This document shows, one piece after another, positions 1-17,649 of a DNA stretch of 64,000 nt; the stretch's first letter is position 1, and the number at the start of each line of letters is the position of its first letter. The DNA comes from Golubevia sp. BC0850 (lineage: Eukaryota > Basidiomycota > Exobasidiomycetes > Golubeviales > Golubeviaceae), in assembly GCA_012976225.1 (NCBI GenBank), contig JAAVVG010000012.1, positions 186,001 through 250,000 of the forward strand, read 5' to 3'. The position numbers were made by a program, and so were the translations under genes. The notes beneath the pieces are model-generated. The model saw only the letters and a program-made list of their open reading frames with translations. It did no database searches and had not been told where the DNA came from.

Positions 1-1611
1 TACGTTTCGCACCAACAGAGAAGGTGATGGTCAAGACGGCGACCAAAGACTCTGGAATGACACCAATTCCTAAAGCGATGGCATACAAGACGACCTCGTT
101 CGTGATGTCGAACTCGGCCACCCCGAAAACTATGATAGCCTGGAAGAGAAGAAGATCAGAGAGAGAGAGAGCGTCGGTATATACGGAATGAACTGAACCT
201 ATCCATCAGATGAGCAACTGGTGTACTCACACAAACAACAGCTAAACTAAGTAAGAGATAAGCCAACTTGTTAAGTTTGATCTGAAGAGGAGTTCCCTCT
301 CTCAATCCCAACCACTTAGCACTAGCTTCCCACCATTTCTTGTAGAAAGGAATTGATTTATCTTGTTTCTGTTTTTGAGCCATAGCAGCAGCGATTAAAC
401 CGATTTGAGTTTGCATCGCAGTAGCGATAACGATACCTCTGCCTCTACCTTTAGTAACGACAGTACCAGCGAAAGAGTTGTTAGTTCTATCAGCTGCGCC
501 TAAAGTTGAAAGAGGATCTGGAATGACATCCAAAGTTTTTTGCGATGGAAGAGATTCTCCAGTAAGAGCTGCTTCATCAACCTCGAGATTCGTAGATTCG
601 ATTAGACGAACGTCTGCAGGTAGAACGTCTCCAGTTCGGAAAAGGACGATGTCTCCTAGGACTAGCTCTGAAGATTGAATGGTGACGATGTTGGAAGAGC
701 GGACGACTATGGCGGTTGGTGAAGATAAGGAACGTAGAGAAGCCATCATACGTTCGGCTTTGTATTCTTGGCTGTAAAAAGGGGAAGAGCGAGTCAACGA
801 CGGTCAGAAAGCTCAGAAGAGAGACGTGGTGAAGGGCAGTCTCTACTCACATGAAACCAATTCCCACATTAGTAACGATGACAGCAGTTACAACACCACC
901 TTCGACCCAATCTTTGACACCGAAAGAGCTGTGGAGAGAGAAGAGGAGAGGTCAGCGAACGGTCAGGGATGGACGATCTCAACGCCTCGCAGCGACTACT
1001 CACAGAGCCATGGCGGCTACAAGGACCAGAGTCAAGGCGTTGGCACATTGTCTGTTGAGAAGAAGAAGAGAAAAGAGAGACGGTCGAAAATCAGCCGAAT
1101 GCGGAGACGTTATCCGAATGCGTAACCTCCTCCCCACTCACCTCAAGAAGATAGTCCAAGCACTAGCACCTTTGTTCTCTTTCAGTTGGTTAGGACCAAA
1201 AGTAGAGAGACGGCTTTCAGCTTCTTTAGAAGATAAACCATGATTGATGTTAGAAGATAATAATTCGACGGTCTGATTGATTGTTAATGTATGCGGTTGG
1301 AGCAAAGCGGATGGGATGGAGGATAAGGTAGATCCTGTGCTTGGAAGCTGAGATTGAGGGTTCCCACCAGCTTCACTGATTGGTGAAGGTTTGTCTGAAT
1401 CAGAGATTGAAGAATTGGTTGAACGATTTGAAGAAGTGATGGAAAGAGTTGGAGGTGGACGTTGGATTGAGATTGATACGTGGGGCGTACCACTATTTGG
1501 TGGTTCTCCTTCTTCACTGACGATTTGGTCAGCGCAAGTGGAGTTTGGAGCATTGGAATTGGAATCGTTTGAAGAGGTCGCATTGTTGGAATTGTTGGAA
1601 GGGTGAACCAT
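1..1611 (-). CDS. ENA1: ENA-type P-type Na+/K+ ATPase, N-terminal half (runs off the left edge)
   Basis: A P-type ATPase that by family would export Na+ or K+ at the plasma membrane. Five exons are visible: 1142-1611, 1004-1051, 851-928, 231-771 and 1-139. The first exon holds a Ser/Asn-rich cytosolic tail and a cation-ATPase N-terminal domain (HGLSSKEAESRLSTFGPNQL). The second and third exons encode the first membrane pair, ending GIGFIQEYKAE. The fourth holds the actuator domain with the dephosphorylation motif TGES near residue 267. The last visible segment, IPESLVAVLTIT, is the M4 ion-binding helix and is typical of the fungal ENA (IID) class rather than Ca2+ pumps. The phosphorylation and nucleotide domains lie outside the window. 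All exon phases agree. The start is the first ATG in frame. A PMR1-like Ca2+ pump is the alternative, less likely from the M2 and M4 motifs. Confidence 0.87.
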
Positions 1612-4212: not shown

Positions 4213-6891
4213 TTACATTGGGTACATCGCAGTGCAATTCCCCTTTCGGACCATCTCACACTGATCTCTAGAAGCTTGGGGAATTGGAAGCTGAGCTGCT
4301 TTCGAAGGCTGAGAAGAGATCTGCATCATGAGACCGGCTTCCACTAAACAAGAGAGAAGGAGAAATCGGGGCAACCCCGTCAGCTTGAGTTCCATGAGAT
4401 CTGGAAAAAAAAAATGTTCGGCAGCTAAACCTCCTGAGCATGGTATCGACAATTACTCACTATGAGAGACGAGATGACAGTGAAGAGCCCAAAGTCCTGG
4501 CTGTTCGGAGGAAGAAGGATGAAAGGCGAAACAAATTAGCTTCGGCGACCAAGAACAAATCCGAGATCCACTAACATTATCCGTGACGAATCTAATCACA
4601 GCCCAAGAATAGGTAGGAATGGTGAAGACATCTCTACGCATCGGGTTCTTGAACTCTTGATTCAAATCTAGAGAAGATGGCAAGAAGTTTCCAGGGCCTG
4701 AACCCAAATAGTAGGGTGTGTGACCGTGAAGATGGAAGGGGTGCTGAGAGAAGAGAAGGGAAAAAAGAAGTAGAGTGAGAGAAGAGTCAACGAGGATAGT
4801 CAGTGGCGACAATTGACTACTTTGCTACTCACAGTTCCGTCGTCTTGATTATTAAAGATCAGATCAACTACTTGAACCTCATCGTAAGTCAGGACAAGCT
4901 GAGAGTCCTGATCGTAGACATCGGTCGTGGTTCCTTGCTTCTGTGCGTCGACGGTTTGGAAGAGGGTTGCGTTTCCAATCTCAGCATCCCAAGAAGTTGA
5001 GTTGAAGAAAGCTCTGAAGTTGTTGTAGACAGTTCTACCAAAAGTGATGACTACTTTGTCTTGTTTGGTTGAATGAGGTGGATTGATAGCTTGCAGAGGC
5101 ACCAACGAAGAAAAATCCAAGTTAGAAGAGACGCTGGAAGGAAGAGATGGAACCGTTTCACTAGGCATGGCTGTCATGTTCGATCCCTCATATCTCATAA
5201 TTGCTTTTTGTTCGGTGACAAGACCGGGGTTGTCATAAGCAAGCATGCTGGAAAGACGGAGTTTGAAGAAGAGAGGCAGGTAGATTAGAAAAAGTATTTT
5301 CTTCAGAGACTCGAGCCTTGAGTTCTACTCACTCTGTCAAGACTTCTCCTCGAACGTAGAAGGCTCCTGGATTGGCGCTGGTCTCAATGATGACGGAATA
5401 ACGTTGAGCTACGGAGACTGAGAGACTTTGCACGACCTGAGGCTCGATGGGAGTTCCATCGGCCTCGATCACAGTCATCGGGTGACCATCGACCTAATAG
5501 AAAGAGACAGAGTTTGGGTAGATTTTAGGTAGAAGTCACAAACTTTTGCCTCCTTGACACCCGATAGTTAGCTGACAACTTACTGAGAATCCGATGTTAG
5601 CCAGAGATCCAACGTTGATGACTCTAATCCTATAACGCTTGTTAGGCTGGACTGTGAAGTTATAGAATTCTCCCCCATCACAAGCCTGGCCAGTATGAAC
5701 AGCATTGCAATTCAGTTTTCCATAACCGTTCACGAGCCCTCCGTCAGGGGTAGGTTCACTACCTTCACAAGAGCCGTCAGGTCCACAGCCATCGAGATAA
5801 AGAGCGATGACCTCTGAAGAGAACGCGTTGTACAGATCTGAAACCATGAAGATCAAATCTTCGTGGTAAGTTGTGTTACTGGAGGCGACAGTTGCTACGT
5901 CTGTTGAAGTGGAGTTGTTGGAAGAAGAGGAGCTCGAGTCGGACGTGAACTTGAGAGGATCATCAGGTGAACGAAGAATCAGAGGTCCATAGATACCATC
6001 AGAATACGCTGGACCAGAGTGAGCATGCCACCAGTAAGTTCCGACGTTCTGGATTGTGAAGTTGTAAGTGAAAGTACTTCCTGGAGAAATCCCACACTCG
6101 GTGATTCCTGTTTCGAAGAAGAAGGAAAAAAACCAACAAACTGTTAGCATCCTTTCAAATTTGAAAGTACCTATGAGCTACTTACCTAAAGTGCCATCCA
6201 TGAAGTTAGTACCTATAGGTGCAGGAGTGGAAGAAGAGGCGAGTCGAAGGTCAGCGTCTCTCTGAGAATCCTGATTCCTGGGTTCTGTTCCAGAACTCTG
6301 ATTCACTCGCCATTTTGAATCTGGCCATGCCTGTTTAGTAGTGGAGATCCAGTGACGTATTGTCAGAGACTAATCAGGGGGAATTGAGGGAAAGACCGAA
6401 ATGGAAAGGGGCAAGACCTGAGCTTATACTCGCCAATGAATGGAACTGATAACGTCGAGGGAGTTCTTGACGTGAACGACCAACTGATCGCCTAGGTTGG
6501 CTTCAATCAGTGGGCCCGGTGAAATTCCATTGACTACTAGCATAGGTTTAGTAACCCCACCCGGATTAGCCATAATACGACTGATCTCCCAGTCATACTC
6601 TCTGGTCGCTGGCGAAGCGTTCACATCCCAATTTCGGGAGAGAGCCATCTGCGAAGGATCGACGAGCTTGGACCTTTCAACGAATCGAGCAGAAGCAGAA
6701 GCTGACTTCACATCCTTGCCGTTGTGTTTGAGACCCAATCCTAGACCAAGTCCGAGAGCTAAAGCCAGTACGACAATCAGAGCGAGTGCCCCTACCCAGA
6801 TCCATTTCCGCCTGGGTTTCGAGGTGGCGACTTTGTTGCTATCAGCACCTTTGAGCTCTGCTTCAGAATGAGAAGGTGAGTTTGAGGACAT
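4213..6891 (-). CDS. Laccase-like multicopper oxidase with N-terminal membrane anchor
   Basis: Copper oxidase of the laccase/ferroxidase superfamily, 672 residues. Exons: 6434-6891, 6311-6330, 6186-6212, 5584-6107, 5333-5493, 4833-5247, 4461-4743 and 4213-4343 (sum 2019 nt). A basic stretch (KPRRK) precedes one hydrophobic helix near residues 30-52, so the enzyme is probably a type II membrane protein facing outward. All four copper sites are present: HWH at 152-154, WWHAH near 193, HPFHLHGH at 536-543 and HCHLVSH at 623-629. The residue axial to type 1 copper is Leu634, as in many laccases. The HWH motif appears only if a 20-nt exon is spliced between two introns with GC donors; reading through with a GT donor gives HWR and loses a ligand. 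Whether the substrate is a phenol or Fe(II) cannot be decided here. Confidence 0.9.
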
Positions 6892-7304: not shown

Positions 7305-9730
7305 ATGCCTTCCTCTTCTTCTGTGTTAGTTCTTGCTCTCCCGGCTCTAGTTTTGGCCTCTCCTCTCCAAACCCAGGAGAAGAGAGCTATTGCTCAACAA
7401 TTTCAAGCTCCCTCGACCTCTCCTCTGGCTCAGAGCTCCAACTACACTGGAATGAGTAACTCTACTCTTCCAAAGGCAGACTACAAGGAAGGAAAGGTGA
7501 GTATCTGTAGAGCAAGTTTATCAGGGATGGATAGAGACCCACTCCGATCTTCTCCCTCTCTTGTCAAACTCCCAGGCATTCGACCGTCTGATTCATATCT
7601 GGCTAGAGAACACCGATTATGCCAGTGCTGCATCTACCCCTGCTTTCCAATCTTTGCAAGAAACCGGTCAGACCTTGAGGTGAGAGGAAGACTTGATGTT
7701 CCGGGCGAAGTGGATAGGTCACTGACATCTTTTCCTTGATTGATCTTCAATACCTTCTCAGTAACTTTGTTGCGGTCACTCACCCATCCGAGCCAAACTA
7801 CCTTGCTAGTGTATATGGAGACTTCTTCGGTGAGGGAAAGGGGAAAACGGGGGTCACAGGGAGGGTTAGAAGTCTGCTGAAGATTCCGGGTTTGTCGACT
7901 GATGTAGATTTCTTTTCTTGCTTCTTCACACATCACAGGTTTGGCAGGTGAGCAATAAGGGAGGGAAGGGGTCCAGTGAGGAGAGAGCGAGAGAAGTCTC
8001 CAGTGATTGTCGACTGATCTTCTTTTTTTCTCTCCTCTCTCTCTATATCACCATCAACTGACAAACAGACGATACTTTCAATCATATTCCTGTGAACCAG
8101 ACGTCTCTGTTCGATTTGTTAGACGACGGAGGAGTCAGCTACGCCTGCTACCAAGAGAACATGCCGTACGTAGGATTCACTGGGTTCAACTATACTTCCA
8201 AGAACTACCTCGCTGCAGATGCACCCGACTACGCCTATTACGTCAGGTGAGTCGGTTAAAAATAGTCCGGGAAGGAAGAGGAAAACGTTGAACGCATTCT
8301 GACTCATTTCGGCTTTCTTCTCCTTCCCTCCAACAAAAAGAAAGCACAACCCTTGTGCCATGAGCGAGTGAGTGTAAGATAAAGCTTTGGAAATTTGATA
8401 TGCTCCCATACAAAAATATGCATTAATAATTCAAAGAGTCGATAATTTGTCTCTTTCTCGAACCCAGCTACGTCTCTGGCGACAAGACTCGTGCAGTCAG
8501 AAATAGAAACTTCAACAATCTAGCAGCGGATATCGAAGCTGATGCTCTTCCTCAGTGGATGTTTATTACCCCGTGAGTAGCAAAGGGTCGAAGAAATCGC
8601 GGAGAAGAGATGAAACAAGAAATCGCAGCCCTTGCAAGACTGCCCATTCCTTTCCTCGCCCTCGTCTTATTGATTCAAAATTCTTTACGCTCAATCTCTT
8701 CTGTCTTCTACCCTCATGATAGAAAGTGAGTCGACTCCCGAAGATGTCTCAGTTCTCTGTGCTTCGACCTCTGACACCTTGTCCCCGATTTCCCGCTCTT
8801 CTCTCCCTCTAAACAGCATGGTAAACGATGGACATGATACCTCCCCAAAGTTCTTCAGCAACTGGGTTGAGTACTTCCTCCCACCTTTACTCGAAGATTC
8901 CAAGTTCAACTCCACCAAAACTCTCATCGTTTTGAGTTTCGATGAAAACGAAGATTACGGCTCGGAAAACAAAATTATGACCATTGCAATGGGTGGAGCT
9001 CTCCCAGTTGACAAGAGGAATACCACCGAGGACATGTTAGTAAACTGACCTGTCTTCACATTGGCTTCTGAAGCTTGTTCTGAATATTCCCCCCTTTCTA
9101 TATTTTTCTTTCCATTCGCTCAGGTTTATGTCTCACTACTCTATGATCTCAACTGTCGAAGCTAACTGGGGATTAAAGAATTTGGGAAGAGGAGATGTCA
9201 ACAAAACTATGGCCAACGTTCTTCCATGGGTCGCAGAGATGGCTAACTTAGATGGATGGACTACTCAAGTAGCTCACGAAAATCAACCTCAAACCAACCT
9301 TACTGGACTCTTCGCTGGACCTCTCAACCCAGCCATGTACATTCCATTCTACGCCCCTTCAGATCTCGAAGTCGTTGGAGCTGGAGGTCAAAAGGTTCTT
9401 CTCAAAGATGGAGCTGACAAGTCTTTGACTTTAGAGACTGCTCCACCTTCAGTCAATTTGACCAAGATGGGTCAGCTTGGTGAGTGAAGGCACGCTAGAG
9501 GTATTGGACGAACGTTGACCGAGGTTTGATGTTGACTTACACTTTCTTCTTCTTCCTCTCCTGTACTCTCAGATCCATACAATACCGATCCAGGATTCAA
9601 TAACGTTGATGTTTCAGCTGCTTCTGGATCCGGTTCTGGAGAGAAGGACAGCGCTATCTCCTTCGCTGTCACCAAATCGACCCTTGTTGGAGCTGGAATC
9701 TTGGCTTTATGGTTCTCTCTTCTCGCATAA
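7305..9730 (+). CDS. Secreted, probably GPI-anchored phosphoesterase-family acid phosphatase
   Basis: Predicted extracellular phosphatase of the phosphoesterase superfamily (Aspergillus PhoA-like), 471 residues. Ten exons: 7305-7496, 7576-7679, 7762-7829, 7939-7947, 8069-8246, 8341-8367, 8468-8572, 8817-9035, 9124-9479 and 9573-9730. The N-terminus is a signal peptide (VLVLALPALVLASP). Family motifs follow in order: HIWLENTDYA, EPNYLASVYGD, NDGHDTSPKFFSNW and LSFDENEDYG, which carry the expected acidic and His metal ligands. The C-terminus has a Ser/Gly-rich stretch, then a hydrophobic tail ending WFSLLA, as expected for GPI attachment. There are many N-glycosylation sequons. The fourth exon is only 9 nt (codes Leu-Ala plus partial codons), yet it restores the expected FFGLADDTF. 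All phases agree. Confidence 0.88.
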
Positions 9731-10390
9731 ACGTACTTCGTTCTTTCTGGTTTGCCTCTAGTTTCTCACCTCTCACCCCTTTAAGGAGCCAAACAATGTT
9801 CTCGAGGGTCTCAAAGACTCCTGATGTTTCTTTCTTTACTTGCTTGGAATAGACCACTTTCGATGTACTTGGACTACATGTCTTTGACTCATACCTTCTC
9901 CCCCAAAGTTGGGGTCAAAGTTCACAGACTTTACAACTCATCGAAAAGGATACCGCTCTTGAGAAGAGTTCCCATGCTCGATTTGGTCGTGAACTCTTTG
10001 AATATTTGCCACCTCTGATACAGCCCCAAAATCCAGCTGACAGCCCAGCACCTTGGATGTTGGGCTTCTCAGATCTACTGGGATGATTCAATAATCGGTG
10101 AAAATCGAAAGAATGAAAAGAAGGGAGAAAAGACGAAATTATGAAAAGGATCTCCAATTTTGTCCACAATTAGAATCGCAGTGACATCATATCGCCACGA
10201 GCAGCAGATTCTCCGTCTCCCCTCGATCTGGACTTTACTTCCATCTCCTCGACTCCCGTTCAAGTCAATCCTTTAACTTCAAAGCTGATCATTATCATTC
10301 TATAGCTACAATTCAAGCAGACGCTCAAGTAGATTCAATTTAGCTCATCCCATCCTTGGCTCACCGAACTCCTCTATCTCGCTCCTATTC
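9731..10390. other. Intergenic region upstream of the histidine kinase gene
   Basis: 3' flank of the phosphatase gene and the presumed promoter and leader of the histidine kinase. No ORF or repeat of note. Confidence 0.45.
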
Positions 10391-13300
10391 ATGGTGCAAC
10401 CGCCATCCAAAGGGAAAGAGGCTAGTCATGCTGTGACATTCAATAGAGATCCTATTCTTTCAAGTTCAACTTCAAAATCAAGCTCTAATTCAGCCTCAAC
10501 GATCTCTCCATCCCCCTCTCCCTCATCTTCTTCAACTCCTTCAGGCTACCACTCACCTAACATTGAATCATCCTCAAACTTCAAGGTGAACGTTTCCTCT
10601 CCCCGATCTTCTATCTCCTCAGCTTCAACTGCAACTCAAGCTACTGCGAACGCTTCAAGCGCAAGGAGAGGTGCTTGGAGAGGTGGTTCAATAGGTGCAG
10701 GTGGTTCTAGCAGCAGTAGTTCTAACAATCCTTCACCAAGTGCAAGTCTATCCTCAACTACCTCGCCTAACAACCAGATATCAGCAGATTCAGACTCTGG
10801 AACGAGCCAATCAAGTAGTGAAAAATTGAGTGGGAGCCTCGCTCTAGAGACAACTACCTCTTCCTCCTCTGTCGGCTCAACCTCAACCTCAATTGGCTCT
10901 GCTGAGTCTTCAAGTCAAACATCTCAATCTCAATCAGATCAAAGTAGAATGGATCTCGAAAAGATAGGACCATCTCATATTCAAGTTGGAAGTTCAAGTT
11001 CAAGTAACAGCAAGAATGTTCCGCCGCATCATCCTTCCTCTTCCCCTCTCTCCTCGGAGCAACCAACTCATTCAAATTCCCATACCACTCTCACTCAAGA
11101 GCAATTATCTCTAAGTTGGGATCGAGTCAGTGGTCCTAGTTATCAACAGAGCCCTCCTGGAACGATCTCTCAGATCCCTCCCTTTGGATCTCCAACTTCC
11201 CTCGCTCCAATTCTGGTCAGTGAGGGAGGAACCAGTGGACCAGTTTTGAGAAGAGGCCAGTCGCAGGTGATGGCAGTTGGAGGAGGTGGGGGTGGTAGAA
11301 CTGGAACTTTTGAAAATTGGAATCTGGGATCGGCGGATAGGAGGAATCAAGAGGATTCACCAAGTGAAAGAGGGTGGAAAGGTGCTACTTCCTCAAGTGC
11401 AAGACCTGGTTCAGCCCACTCTTCCTCTCCTTTCAATTCTTCAAATCAGGATCTGTCAAGTCAAAAGAGTCCCCTTTCAAGGTCGCAGCCTCTTGAAGCC
11501 CAGCTTCCGCCTCAAGCTCCAACTTCCTCCCAATCTCCGCTGTCTCAATCCACCTCTTCAAGACTGAATACTACTACTTCTACTTCAAGTGATCCAAAGA
11601 TGGAAGGGGATGGATATGACTGGGCCAACTTCGTCTTCGCTTACTCTAGAGGAAGGTGGGATCCTAACAGGTTGCCTCGACCTCCAGGAAGGAGCACAGC
11701 TCACCCAGGAAACCTAACTAGGATTGAGCCAAACGGAGGAGTCACTCTGACAACAGCTGGATCAATAGTAGGGACTTCAAGTGGACTATCAGGTGAACCC
11801 AGTGTTCAGGAGTTGGTGGACAGCTGCGGAAAGAAAGGAGCCCTGGCGCAAGCTGGAGAGAATGGAGGATCGGAACCAGAAGTGGAAGCGATGAGAAGAC
11901 CAAGTCTAACTTACGTTCAGGCTGACGGAACTCTGGTCCCAGACTCAGCTTTTCTACCAGCTTCTTCCAAAAGCTCTCCACCCGATCCAAGTCAAGTGGT
12001 TGATTCTAGCGAGAATGGGGGAATCGCTTCCTTATCTCCGCAAAGTTCGAGCAGTCATCCAACTCTAAGGAAATTCTCTTCTTTGCCTCAAGATACGGAT
12101 GCTACCTCCTCTCAGCAGCTCCATCCACAGCCAGACGCCTTGGTGGACGTGTACCAACACGACTTGGCTCACGCTAGATCTAGCCACTCCTCACCAAACG
12201 CTTTAGCAACAACTCACGCTGCAATCTTAGCTCAAGAAGCGCGGGAGAATCTTCTTTCAGGAAATCGGACCCACGAAGGAACCTCTGGAAATGGCAATGG
12301 AATTGGAACCGGCGCTGGAAACGGAGCTAGAGGGTCCAAATCATCTCCAGATGGTCTACCCACCTTTGGAACTACGAGGCAGCCGCTCACTACAAGAACA
12401 TCAGATCCCTCTCATCTGGTCGAAGGCTCTATCTGGCACACTCCAAGAGAATCCTCTGCTTCTCAAGATCGAAGCGAAGAGCAAGGCGCGAAAGAAGGTT
12501 CCTCTCCTCTCTCCAGACCTCATCTCTCAGCCTCTAGTTCTAGCTCAGCCTTCCATCCTCTAGCTGGTTCTTCTAGGGGCCCCTCCAATACGCTCTCCGC
12601 TCCCGCTTCATCGCAGTCTCAAGCTACCACAACCGAGCTTCGACCTGCTCTTTTGACTCAATTCAGTGCTCTGAGTCTTGGTTCTAATGGATCTGGAAGT
12701 GATCACACCAACGTTACGATCCATGCCAGCGACAGTTCGCCTCCCTCTCGACCAGGTCCAACTCCAGTTCAAGACCCAACGTCGGAGTCTTCTTCAGAGG
12801 CGCTGGCGATGATGTCTCCAGTCTCTACCAGATCTGCTCCAGAAGTGCCTCTCTCAGGTATGGCGGCGATTTTGAGGAGAACTTCCGACGCAGAGGACAG
12901 AGAAAGAGTGGCGAACGATGATCCTAGGAACTCTGCTCTTTCAGTCGCAGCTCTCCGACGAGCCGCAGCTAGGAGAACCAGCGTCACCAAGGAACTCTCT
13001 TCAAGACGCGAGAGCTCCGAAAAAGGAAAAGGAAAGCAAGTCTTGCATTCATCTAGTTTCCCTGGATCCGTGCCATCTTCTGTCAGCGGAGAAGCCAGCT
13101 CAGACGCTTCCACTTCAAACGACTTTCTCTTCCAATCATCTTCTCCAGCCAGTAGCGCCCAGGTTTCTTCTTACCGAGACGCAGATCAGCAGAAGACCGA
13201 AGCAGCCGCCTCTCAGTCAATTCGTCGCTCTGGATCCAACTCTACAGAACTAGCCGATTCGAACGGCGGAGCCAAAGGTGCAGCAGGCCCATCCAACGAG

Positions 13301-16300
13301 AGCAGAAGAAAGGCCCTTGAAGCTATCAGAGCTCCCTCTTCGCCAATCTCTAGTAGGCCGAGAACAACATCGGAGCTCCAAAGGCAGCCTTCGGGTGGAG
13401 GGGCTGGAGTGGAGGGTAGAAATGGAAACGGAAACTCGATATCTGCAAGTCCAACTTCGCCTGCTATCAAGAGCTATATGGCAGCTGGACAGAGAACGGA
13501 GAACTTCTATAAGGAGTTCGGATACCTGCCCTCCATTCTACCTCCCAATGAGCTGGAGAGAAGGCAAGCTCTCAGGCGATATGGCCCGCCCAAGGTCGCT
13601 GCGAACGTCAACTTCGATAGGATCGCTCATCTGGTCAAGCTAGTCTTCAACACGAAGTTGGTTCTCATATCACTGGTCGGAGAAAATGAGCAGATCTTCC
13701 AGACAGAAATGGGCGGAGGAGGAAACATGAGCTTGCCTTCTCTGCAGAAATCAGCTGGAGCAAGAGACTGCTCGTTCTGCGCTCATTCAATTCTGCAAGA
13801 TGGCGACGAACCCATTCTGGTCTTGGATACTTGGCGGGATTGGAGATTCGCTGGCAATCCTTTGGTGTTGGGTAGCCCCCACATCAGATTCTATTGTGGA
13901 GCGCCTCTAAGAACCGCCGATGGTTTCAATCTTGGTAGTCTTTGCATCATCGATGACAAGCCTTGGACGGAATTCAATCCTCGACAGCGGCACACTCTGA
14001 AAGAATTTGCTAGGGTGGTAATGAGAGAAATGGAATTGATGAGGGATCAGGTGAGTTCGAATGGTTCTTCTAAAGAATCTCCCTTCGCCTTTCTCACCCT
14101 CTTACACGTTCCCCCTCCCTTCTCCTGAACAGATTCAACTCGGTATGAGAGATAGGATGCAGAATTCTATCGAACTCTTTACTCGAGAATGCTTAGAGGT
14201 GGAATCGGAGGACGTTCAAGATTCGGCTTTAAGTGCCCACGGAGGAGAATCGACGACTGGTTCGACTGGTGCCAATCCGGTTGGTCTGCACCGAGTCTAC
14301 GATCTAGCAGCAAAAAGCATGCAAGTAGCCCTTCAAGCTTCGGGAGCTATCTTGTTCGACTTGTCTCACTTTGAGCTGGTCGATTCTTCCGCTCACGAAG
14401 GAGGCAGTGGAGGCAAGATCTTCTTTCCCTCGCCCTACTCCGACCCAGACGCCGGTCCCGTCGCCAGCTTCGATGAACCTTCAAACGTGGAAGCTTCTGT
14501 TACTGGAGAGGGAGCCAAGCCAACCGAATCAGCTTCAAAGAGGGCAGAGAATCTCAAAGGAAAAACTGTTCCTCCCATGCTCATCCTTGGAGCTTCGGAA
14601 GACACTGAATTCCCTCCAGAAAGAGAGACTCCGGTACCTCTTTCTCATCACATCAAGGTAGCCGAGTTCCTCAGATCTCATCGAACAGGTCATTACTTTC
14701 CCTTCTGCCCTTCTCCGTTCTCCCAACTGCTGCCGAGTGGGGTCACAAATCTCATGCTGGTTCCAATCTTTGGTTTGAACAAACAGCCTTTCGCTCTTCT
14801 CTGCGCCTACTCTCAAGGAACTGAATCAGGAACCACCTTGGAGGAGCTAAAGGATTCTGGTCTTCAGTACCTGCGAGCTCTCGGAATGATCATTCTCAGT
14901 GCTGTTCTCAAGAAGGACATCATGCTCGCTGACAAAGCAAAGAGTCATTTCATTTCCAAGTAAGTTCCATTGCCATATGACCTCTGAATTTTCAGACTTG
15001 ACAGCTGACGTGTTTTCCTCTCCTTCTCCCTCTCTCAGCATCTCTCATGAACTTCGAACACCTCTTCATGGAATTCTAGCAGCTGCTGAGCTTCTTTCTG
15101 AGACGAAACTAGATGCCACTCAAGATTCTTACCTCGAGACTGTAGAGGCTTGTGGAAAGTCTCTTCTTGAACTGGTGAACCACGTTCTGGACTTCACGAA
15201 ACTGAGTGGGGGAGCCAGCGTTGATCGTCAACACTCGAGGACGAAGTGCGATCTGGTCAAGCTCGTCCAAGAAGTCTGCGAGAGCAGTTGGATCGGTCAG
15301 ATGGCGAAGACTCTGGAGAGTCAATCTGGAATCGGATCAGTCTACGCTCCGCCCTCTTCGGGAGCAACTCCTGCTAGAGGCAGTCTCGGTGATGGCAGCT
15401 CAGCTAAGAAACTCCGAGCTCTTCCAGTGGAGACAGTCATCGATGTGTCGATGCGAAAGAGCGGCTGGCTTGTCAATTGTGACACTGGAGGGATTCGAAG
15501 AGTTCTGATGAATTTGATTGGGTGAGTGTTGCTGATCTCTGTTACTCTCTAGCTTGTCTCGTCGTGTTGACCTCGGAGGGCTAATGTTTCATCTCCTTCC
15601 TCTTCCTATCCTTTTCTGCAGTAACTCTCTCAAGTTCACCAGCAAAGGCTTCGTCCACGTAGCTGTTCGGGAAGTTCAAAGCTCTGATACTCATGTTATC
15701 GTCGAACTTGGTGTCACCGACACTGGTCGAGGAATCTCTAGAGCCTTCTTGGAAGAACAGCTGTTCCATCCTTTCACTCAGGAGAACACCCTAGGAACTG
15801 GAACTGGTCTAGGTCTCTCCATCGTCAACAGCATTGTTCAATCTCCATCTATCAACGGAAAGATTGACGTCTGGTCGACGGTTGGTCAAGGAACGGAGAT
15901 CCGCGTTACCTGTGAATTAGAACTCTGCTCTGCCGACGAGGCCGAAGGAGCTATCTATCAACCCGCTCTCGATGTTCAAAAGGAACGCACCGTAGGTTTC
16001 TTGGGCTTCGATGGCTCCAGAGGTCACGAGAATCTAAGGGAGGTTCTCTGTGGCTACTTCGAAGATTGGTGGAACTTCTCTCAGGTCCAACTAGAGGGGA
16101 ACCAACTAGAGCTTCTAGCCAGCCAAGAAGCAGAACTCGGTGATCTAGTCCTGATCAATGAGAGCGTGGCACTCCTCGAAGCTCTCGGAAAGAGGAATTC
16201 GCCTCTTCCTCCAGCCATCATTCTGACCAGTGTCAGAGGAGATCCAGAGGTTGCTGCTGCTTGTGACGCTTATCATCGAGAGGGAGGAGTAGCGAGGATG

Positions 16301-17649
16301 CTGTTCAAACCTGCTGGCCCCGCCAAAATCGAGGCTGTGGTCGATTTCTGCCTGCAATGCCTCGATAGGATTCAAAGGGGAGATCCTCCGGCAAGTGAAC
16401 ACACAGCTCCATCCTCAAGACTACCTTCTCCTCTACCTTCTCCAGCAGCGGCCGAATTTCAAGCTGGTGGCTACTTCCATCCAAAGGAAAGCACTCTTGC
16501 TTCAGATGAGCAGGAAGGAGACACTCCTAGAGAACCTTCTCTCAAGACGCCAGTTCCGGATCTCACGACTCCAAGGCTCTCAAGACCCAACAACGAGACC
16601 GTCGCCAAGCTACGAGAGTCCAGTCATCACATGTCTCCGGAAGCACCTCCGGATTTATCAAGCACGCTGATCAGAAGGCATTCGACGGAGGACAGAGTCA
16701 TGCAGGTTCGAAGCGGGGGAATTGTCATGGAGTCTCAGAACTCGACCGACCCAACCTCCCACTCCTATTCAAGGCTATCCAGACCCATGCTACCTGCCAG
16801 AAGTATCACCTACCATGAACCTCGACTGAACAAACATGTTCTCGTCTCACCTCATGGAAGCAATCCTTTGAGCAGCGGCGGCAGCAGTTCGAGTCGGAAG
16901 AGAAGCGGAGGCAGTGGATTGGAAGAAGAACAGGACTACTTCAGTCGAACGGTCGGCGAGCAGAGCAATCCTGGCTCTCCTGGATCTCAAATCTCTCTTG
17001 ATGGAGGTGATGGAGCAGTTCTCAAATCTGCTCTGTCTCCCACCAGAAATGCGCCGTCTAGCTCCAACGCTCCCCAGAAACGAATGCAGATTCTTTCAGT
17101 CGAGGACAATGCCATCAACCGCAGAGTTATTGCTGCCTTCTTATCCAAAATGGAGGTGGATTTCGTCGAAGCTTCAAACGGAGAGGAAGGAGTCAAGATC
17201 TTCGAGTCTCATCCTGCTAATCACTTCGATGTCATCTTGATGGATCTTTCTATGCCAATCTTGGATGGAATCGGTGCTACTGCTGCTATTCGCAAGATCG
17301 AGTCTGAAAGGTTCGAAGCCTCTACATCAGCCGACCGTCGAACTTCTGGAAGGAAAGGCTCAGCCTCTAGTTTCGCCAGCTCGATCTCCTCAAGGTCAGC
17401 TACTCAATCTCAAAAACCAAGAGCCAAGATTTTTGCTCTTACTGGTCGCTCTTCAGAGGAAGACAAGAGGAAAGCTCTCGCAACAGGCGCTGATGGCTAC
17501 ATGGTCAAACCCGTGAGTGTTGCGGCTCGAGGAGGCAACAAGTTCCACATCGTTTCTGCTCCAATCACTGACCGTTTTTTTCTGCTACTCCTTTCTTCCA
17601 GTTGGGCTTCAAGGTGCTCTCGAGTTTGCTGAAGATGCTTGCACACTAA
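10391..17649 (+). CDS. Hybrid histidine kinase with two GAF-like domains and a receiver
   Basis: A sensor kinase of the fungal phosphorelay, 2302 residues, that would pass phosphate via a Ypd1-type protein to response regulators. Exons: 10391-14050, 14133-14959, 15039-15521, 15622-17512 and 17602-17649. Roughly the first 1050 residues are Ser/Pro/Gly-rich and probably disordered. A GAF domain follows at about 1076-1220 (CSFCAHSIL, GAPLRTADGFNLGSLCIID). A second, divergent GAF-like region spans about 1221-1490. The H-box ISHELRTPLHG places the phospho-His at about 1499. The kinase domain has the N-box (GNSLKFTS), DTGRGIS and GTGLGLSIV. The receiver has VEDNAINRR, phospho-Asp near 2198 in ILMDLSMPILDG, and a conserved Lys in MVKP. 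No transmembrane helix is evident, so the protein should be cytosolic. I could not assign a numbered fungal kinase class. Confidence 0.92.

Follow-up and report, generated by a model that had tools for sequence, protein, structure and literature searches.

Two neighbouring GC-AG introns very probably flank a 20-nt exon at the first copper-binding motif of a laccase-like oxidase gene in Golubevia sp. BC0850

Analysis of a 64,000-nt stretch of the Golubevia genome (hereafter the window) indicates that a predicted multicopper oxidase gene on its minus strand very probably contains two GC-AG introns in immediate succession, which enclose an exon of only 20 nt at the copper-binding motif HWHG. A preliminary description of the sequence had proposed this arrangement, and both introns and the microexon are indeed present at the positions given in Table 1, in the parse that ranks first among 8,285. 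By its domains and predicted copper ligands the gene is a laccase-like multicopper oxidase, and we are confident that its first two introns are of the ordinary U2 type, with GC in place of GT as donor, and are most likely removed constitutively.

Table 1. Predicted exons and selected introns of the oxidase gene, in order of transcription; coordinates are positions in the window, and a slash marks the splice point.
Feature	Position	Strand	Remarks
Exon 1	6434..6891	-	ATG at 6891; Cu-oxidase_3 start; His152
Intron 1, GC-AG, 103 nt, phase 2	6331..6433	-	Donor TTG/GCGAGT; CTGAC 32 nt from end
Exon 2, 20-nt microexon	6311..6330	-	Trp153 last base, His154-Gly-Gln-Ile-Gln-Asn, Gly first base
Intron 2, GC-AG, 98 nt, phase 1	6213..6310	-	Donor ATG/GCGAGT; CTGAC 38 nt from end
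Exon 3, 27-nt microexon	6186..6212	-	Flanked by two phase-1 introns
Intron 3, GT-AG, 78 nt	6108..6185	-	
Exon 4	5584..6107	-	WWHAHS copper block, His196 and His198
Exon 5	5333..5493	-	
Exon 6	4833..5247	-	
Exon 7	4576..4743	-	HPFHLHGH copper block, His536/539/541
Exon 8, 40 nt	4461..4500	-	HCHLVSH: His598, Cys599, His600, His604
Last intron, GT-AG, 117 nt	4344..4460	-	Cu-oxidase_2 127.1 bits with this intron removed
Exon 9	4213..4343	-	MEAGLMMQ... through stop codon

The nine exons join into a single open frame of 1,944 nt, or 647 aa. Exon 1 ends in ...ATTCATTG at 6434 and is followed at once by GCGAGT; the same hexamer follows exon 2 (6330-6311), and exon 3 (6212-6186) is followed by GTAAGT. 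Across exons 1 to 3 the joined frame reads IHWHGQIQNGTNFMDGTLG and continues with ITECGIS. At junctions 1 and 2 the splice point can slide by one base and leave the product unchanged, and only the placing adopted here yields GC-AG boundaries. At the other end of the gene, a last intron spanning 4460-4344 makes the gene end read HCHLVSHMEAGL, the acceptor at 4344 restoring HCHLVSHMEAGLMMQ, and CTGAC is located 36 nt upstream of this acceptor. An alternative acceptor at 4401 would bring the total to 2,001 nt and add residues past HCHLVSH, and it lowers the Cu-oxidase_2 match to 112.4 bits, against 127.1 bits with 4344, such that the last intron most likely ends at 4344. An ab initio gene finder restricted to GT donors draws a different 3' end, with the last intron at 4456-4401 and the stop at 4268; acceptor 4344 was chosen over it because homology was followed. 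The total of 2,019 nt given in the preliminary description could be reproduced with neither acceptor.

The spliced protein matches the three copper-oxidase domains of Pfam, namely PF07732 (Cu-oxidase_3, E-value 4.9e-35), PF00394 (Cu-oxidase, 6.5e-34) and PF07731 (Cu-oxidase_2, 5.3e-37), and the Cu-oxidase_3 match runs unbroken across residues 108-216 of the joined protein. Among the best 60 of 167 matches in a sequence search of the PDB, a laccase (3sqr) came top, with ascorbate oxidase (1aoz) and Fet3 (1zpu) lower. Specifically, IHWHGQIQNGTNFMDG aligns without gaps with IHWHGILQRGTPWADG of ascorbate oxidase 1aoz, and the same holds for 9gly and 3sqr. Multicopper oxidases bind copper through ten histidines and one cysteine in four copper blocks, and the four blocks of the predicted protein hold this set: His152/154, His196/198, His536/539/541, His598/600/604 and Cys599. 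HWHG begins at residue 152, and its second histidine is His154; by the family rule, His152 presumably coordinates type 2 copper and His154 type 3 copper. The motif is split between exons, with His152 encoded in exon 1 and His154 in exon 2. The preliminary description had suggested that His154 depends on non-canonical splicing, and this stands; the suggestion is refined in that exon 2 supplies one of the two HWHG ligands, since His152 is already in exon 1.

The three domains, the four copper blocks and HWHG are held in common with laccase and ascorbate oxidase (3sqr, 9gly, 1aoz), whereas the Golubevia protein differs from them in its N-terminus, where a hydrophobic stretch noted by eye at about residues 30-54, in exon 1, suggests a putative membrane anchor. 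The subfamily assignment among laccase, ferroxidase and ascorbate oxidase-like enzymes is left general, as laccase-like. A viral_contigs search using the oxidase returned a single pattern match, and no relative was confirmed.

The exon structure around HWHG was tested by enumerating parses between two fixed anchors, GDQLVV in exon 1 and WWHAHSG in exon 4; acceptors were AG, intron length was limited to 40-330 nt, intron number to three and peptide length to 45-150 residues, each peptide being scored by BLOSUM62 alignment to three solved oxidases. With GT or GC donors allowed, 9,596 parses stay open and yield 8,285 scored peptides, of which the one with donors GC, GC and GT (the GC/GC/GT parse) scores 191 and the runner-up 174. 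Other open parses of the segment thus also exist, and among those listed HWHG is kept only where donor 6433 is combined with acceptor 6331. Adding AT, GA and GG donors, with up to two introns, gave no parse above 162.

The splice signals of the two introns were compared with those of introns called in the window. Both donors share G/GCGAGT (TTG/GCGAGT and ATG/GCGAGT), a likeness already recorded in the preliminary description, and this is the commonest donor context in the window; the tetramer GAGT at +3 to +6 is likewise the commonest, found in 42 of 134 called introns. Scored without the dinucleotide, the donors reach 3.89 and 3.84, compared with a 75% quantile of 3.47 for the 134 called GT introns, and contexts this good occur at only 0.24% and 0.26% of the 5,080 GC sites on both strands. 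Position -2 at the GC donors is not the favoured A. CTGAC lies 32 nt (intron 1) and 38 nt (intron 2) from the intron end, and the corresponding CTRAY distances are 36, 37, 35 and 36 nt in introns 3, 5, 7 and 8, and 74 and 56 nt in introns 4 and 6. Because fewer than half of the called introns (62 of 134) contain CTRAY anywhere, this motif (chance occurrence in a random 25-nt stretch, 7.3%) constitutes support rather than proof. The acceptors of introns 1 and 2 score 1.80 and 1.28, under the median of 2.67 for called introns.

These signals suggest how the transcript might be handled. Consensus bases at positions -1 and +3 to +6 would probably compensate for the single mismatch of a GC donor to U1 snRNA. 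The spliceosome would most likely remove introns 1 and 2 constitutively; that the cell uses these sites is judged from their sequence. Splicing would join the 20-nt and 27-nt exons to their neighbours and thereby complete HWHG, the first copper-binding block. If intron 1 or 2 were kept, or exon 2 skipped, a stop would follow within three codons; the fate of such mis-spliced RNA is one that we infer. Specifically, retention of intron 1 reads WRV-stop, retention of intron 2 reads GE-stop, and skipping of exon 2 reads WY-stop.

The preliminary description had argued that a failure to splice would destroy the enzyme and that the introns might therefore act as a control point. Early stops are not special to GC introns, however, since three of the six GT introns of the gene (introns 3, 5 and 8) likewise run into a stop within two codons when retained; for GT introns 4, 6 and 7, 15, 10 and 81 codons precede the stop. 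A regulated switch, in which inclusion of exons 2 and 3 is conditional, mis-spliced RNA is destroyed and enzyme output is tuned accordingly, would draw on these stops and also on the RNA itself, where intron 2 carries, at 6244-6238 (minus strand), the heptamer ACTCGCC, which exactly complements the GGCGAGT common to both donors. In the minimum-energy fold, donor 1 is paired to this heptamer, and the two elements could couple introns 1 and 2. Regulation through GC donors is, moreover, known in animals from let-2 and ING4, as cited in passages of PMC7242645, and so the idea of a splicing switch is not absurd. Yet the predicted fold of 6460-6186 has no exceptional stability (z = -0.82, with 41 of 200 shuffles at least as good), and the heptamer lies within chance, since shuffling introns 1 and 2 produced it in 423 of 20,000 rounds; a complement of at least 7 nt to the intron's own donor occurs in 3 of 146 called GT introns. 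Skipping of exon 3 keeps the frame, because this exon sits between two phase-1 introns, but it removes nine domain residues and leaves the segment with a Cu-oxidase_3 match of 101.4 bits instead of 125.6. With ordinary fold stability, early stops shared with GT introns, and GC-AG introns forming an ordinary class of 1-2% in fungi, the control point is unsupported, and a regulated switch is very unlikely. A more specific version of it, with GC donors and heptamer acting as a coupled gate that tunes the inclusion of exons 2 and 3 in response to, for example, metal or growth state, is less likely still. Were such a gate true, the fungus would set its level of active oxidase, or a loop variant of it, by splicing; and splicing that proved conditional would be of interest as an example, in a fungus, of GC donors gating a catalytic residue, although nothing found here points there.

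Constitutive removal of two GC introns must also be weighed against a purely canonical reading, in which GT donors such as GTATAA at 6429 are used and a divergent stretch takes the place of HWHG. Each GC site does have a GT site 4 nt further downstream (6429 GTATAA, 6306 GTGAAT), and 2,212 parses with GT donors only stay open (1,962 distinct peptides scored), the best of which scores 159 and reaches 116.8 bits for Cu-oxidase_3. This best parse loses HWHG, however, and the motif is absent from all 12 top GT-only parses, four each with one, two and three introns. With 6429 and 6306 as donors, alone or combined, the product changes to HWR or shifts frame later on, and all three combinations end in a stop; the preliminary description had noted HWR and a divergent insert for splicing with GT donors. 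As donors, the two GT sites score -4.23 (6429, very poor) and 0.73 (6306, middling-low), where the GC sites reach 3.89 and 3.84. The GC/GC/GT parse is ahead in Cu-oxidase_3 by a modest margin (125.6 bits on the segment), since the remaining domain is intact in both; it is preferred because the GT-only parses lose HWHG and the GT donors score weaker, which leaves the canonical reading extremely improbable. That both donors arose by GT-to-GC mutation in a dying gene is hardly credible at all: two neighbouring non-canonical donors might hint at decay, but the nine exons form one open frame, the histidine and cysteine ligands are retained, and the consensus bases around both GC donors are preserved.

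The preferred model, with two GC-AG introns, rests on homology, because ab initio gene finding came out without them. A home-made finder using GT donors called 20 genes and 134 introns in the window (median called intron 89.5 nt, GC content about 45%), and a variant with a branch-site term called 17 genes and 133 introns. Run with GC donors at two penalty settings, the finder called 1 and 5 GC introns, compared with 0-5 and 4-14 for each of 14 other dinucleotides; the branch-term version called 4 and 6, compared with 0-7 and 1-15 for the controls. GC counts fall within the control ranges, and GC is thus not enriched over other dinucleotides. None of the GC introns called by the finder in the window had a GC[AG]AGT donor, and neither version, with GC allowed, selected oxidase introns 1 and 2. 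When called GT donors were switched to GC one at a time, sensitivity at the two settings was 31/47 and 40/47 for [AG]AGT donors and 44/134 and 64/134 for all donors. As such, further good-context GC introns beside long exons are probably few in the window, whereas those beside microexons would escape; the finder says little on microexons, since it missed the oxidase GC introns. The practical consequence is that gene callers limited to GT donors miss the 20-nt exon, as the GT-only run of our own finder did, and deliver either an oxidase without HWHG or a broken gene.

Selected passages of the cited literature place the two introns in a familiar class. Among annotated splice-site pairs of fungi, GC-AG accounts for 1.009% (PMC7072748), and in manually corrected genes of Ganoderma lingzhi for 1,706 sites, or 1.85%; in the latter species, 194 of 1,847 genes with any non-canonical pair have at least two (PMC11590231). 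In Xanthophyllomyces dendrorhous, comparison of 13 P450 genes with cDNA revealed two GC-AG introns, against a total of 165 introns summed from the printed table, as well as exons as small as 4 bp and adjacent exons of 18 and 20 bp in one gene (PMC5516332). The Golubevia introns resemble the fungal U2-type GC-AG introns described in these passages in their GC donor and AG acceptor and in belonging to a gene with at least two non-canonical introns, a situation already known; they differ in that two neighbours flank a 20-nt exon at a catalytic motif, and in being known from sequence alone. The X. dendrorhous genes are alike in having introns mostly below 150 nt, tiny exons and about 1% GC-AG introns, but they belong to a different gene family, and no microexon between two GC-AG introns is reported in the passages of PMC5516332 used here. 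For Phaffia rhodozyma, PMC5103461 gives a GC content of 47.2%, a density of 318-321 genes per Mb, and 7.5 introns per gene, of 111 nt mean length; the GC content and the gene and intron statistics of the window are similar to those of Phaffia rhodozyma / X. dendrorhous, a likeness that, on these passages, is suggestive only. In titles and abstract openings of the literature on laccase and GC-AG introns, no GC-AG-flanked laccase microexon appeared among the matches listed.

GC-AG introns form a well-known and fairly common class, and very small exons in an intron-rich fungus have precedents too; this gene is a new example. At frequencies of 1-1.85%, and with sites taken as independent, two adjacent GC introns in a 20-gene window would be roughly a 1-5% draw. 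This unusual adjacency runs contrary to the GC/GC/GT model, as do the low acceptor scores, the modest Pfam margin and the omission by the finder. Even so, the gene structure with two GC-AG introns is very probably correct.

Of the 68 open frames of at least 120 aa in the window, 30 were compared with Pfam to survey the surroundings of the oxidase gene; searches with Rfam (at gathering thresholds) and ARAGORN found nothing in it. A divergent predicted gene at 7305-9730 (plus strand) begins 414 bp away from the ATG of the oxidase gene, and one open frame within it has a weak phosphoesterase match (17.8 bits, below the Pfam cut-off of 23). A partial P-type ATPase gene lies at the window edge (156-1611, minus strand); the idea that it might be a copper-loading neighbour was rejected, as its frame 156-803 matches calcium ATPases best among the best 60 of 90 PDB matches. 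Further along, a large histidine kinase gene occupies 10289-17632 (plus strand), with GAF, HisKA, HATPase_c and response-regulator matches in successive frames.
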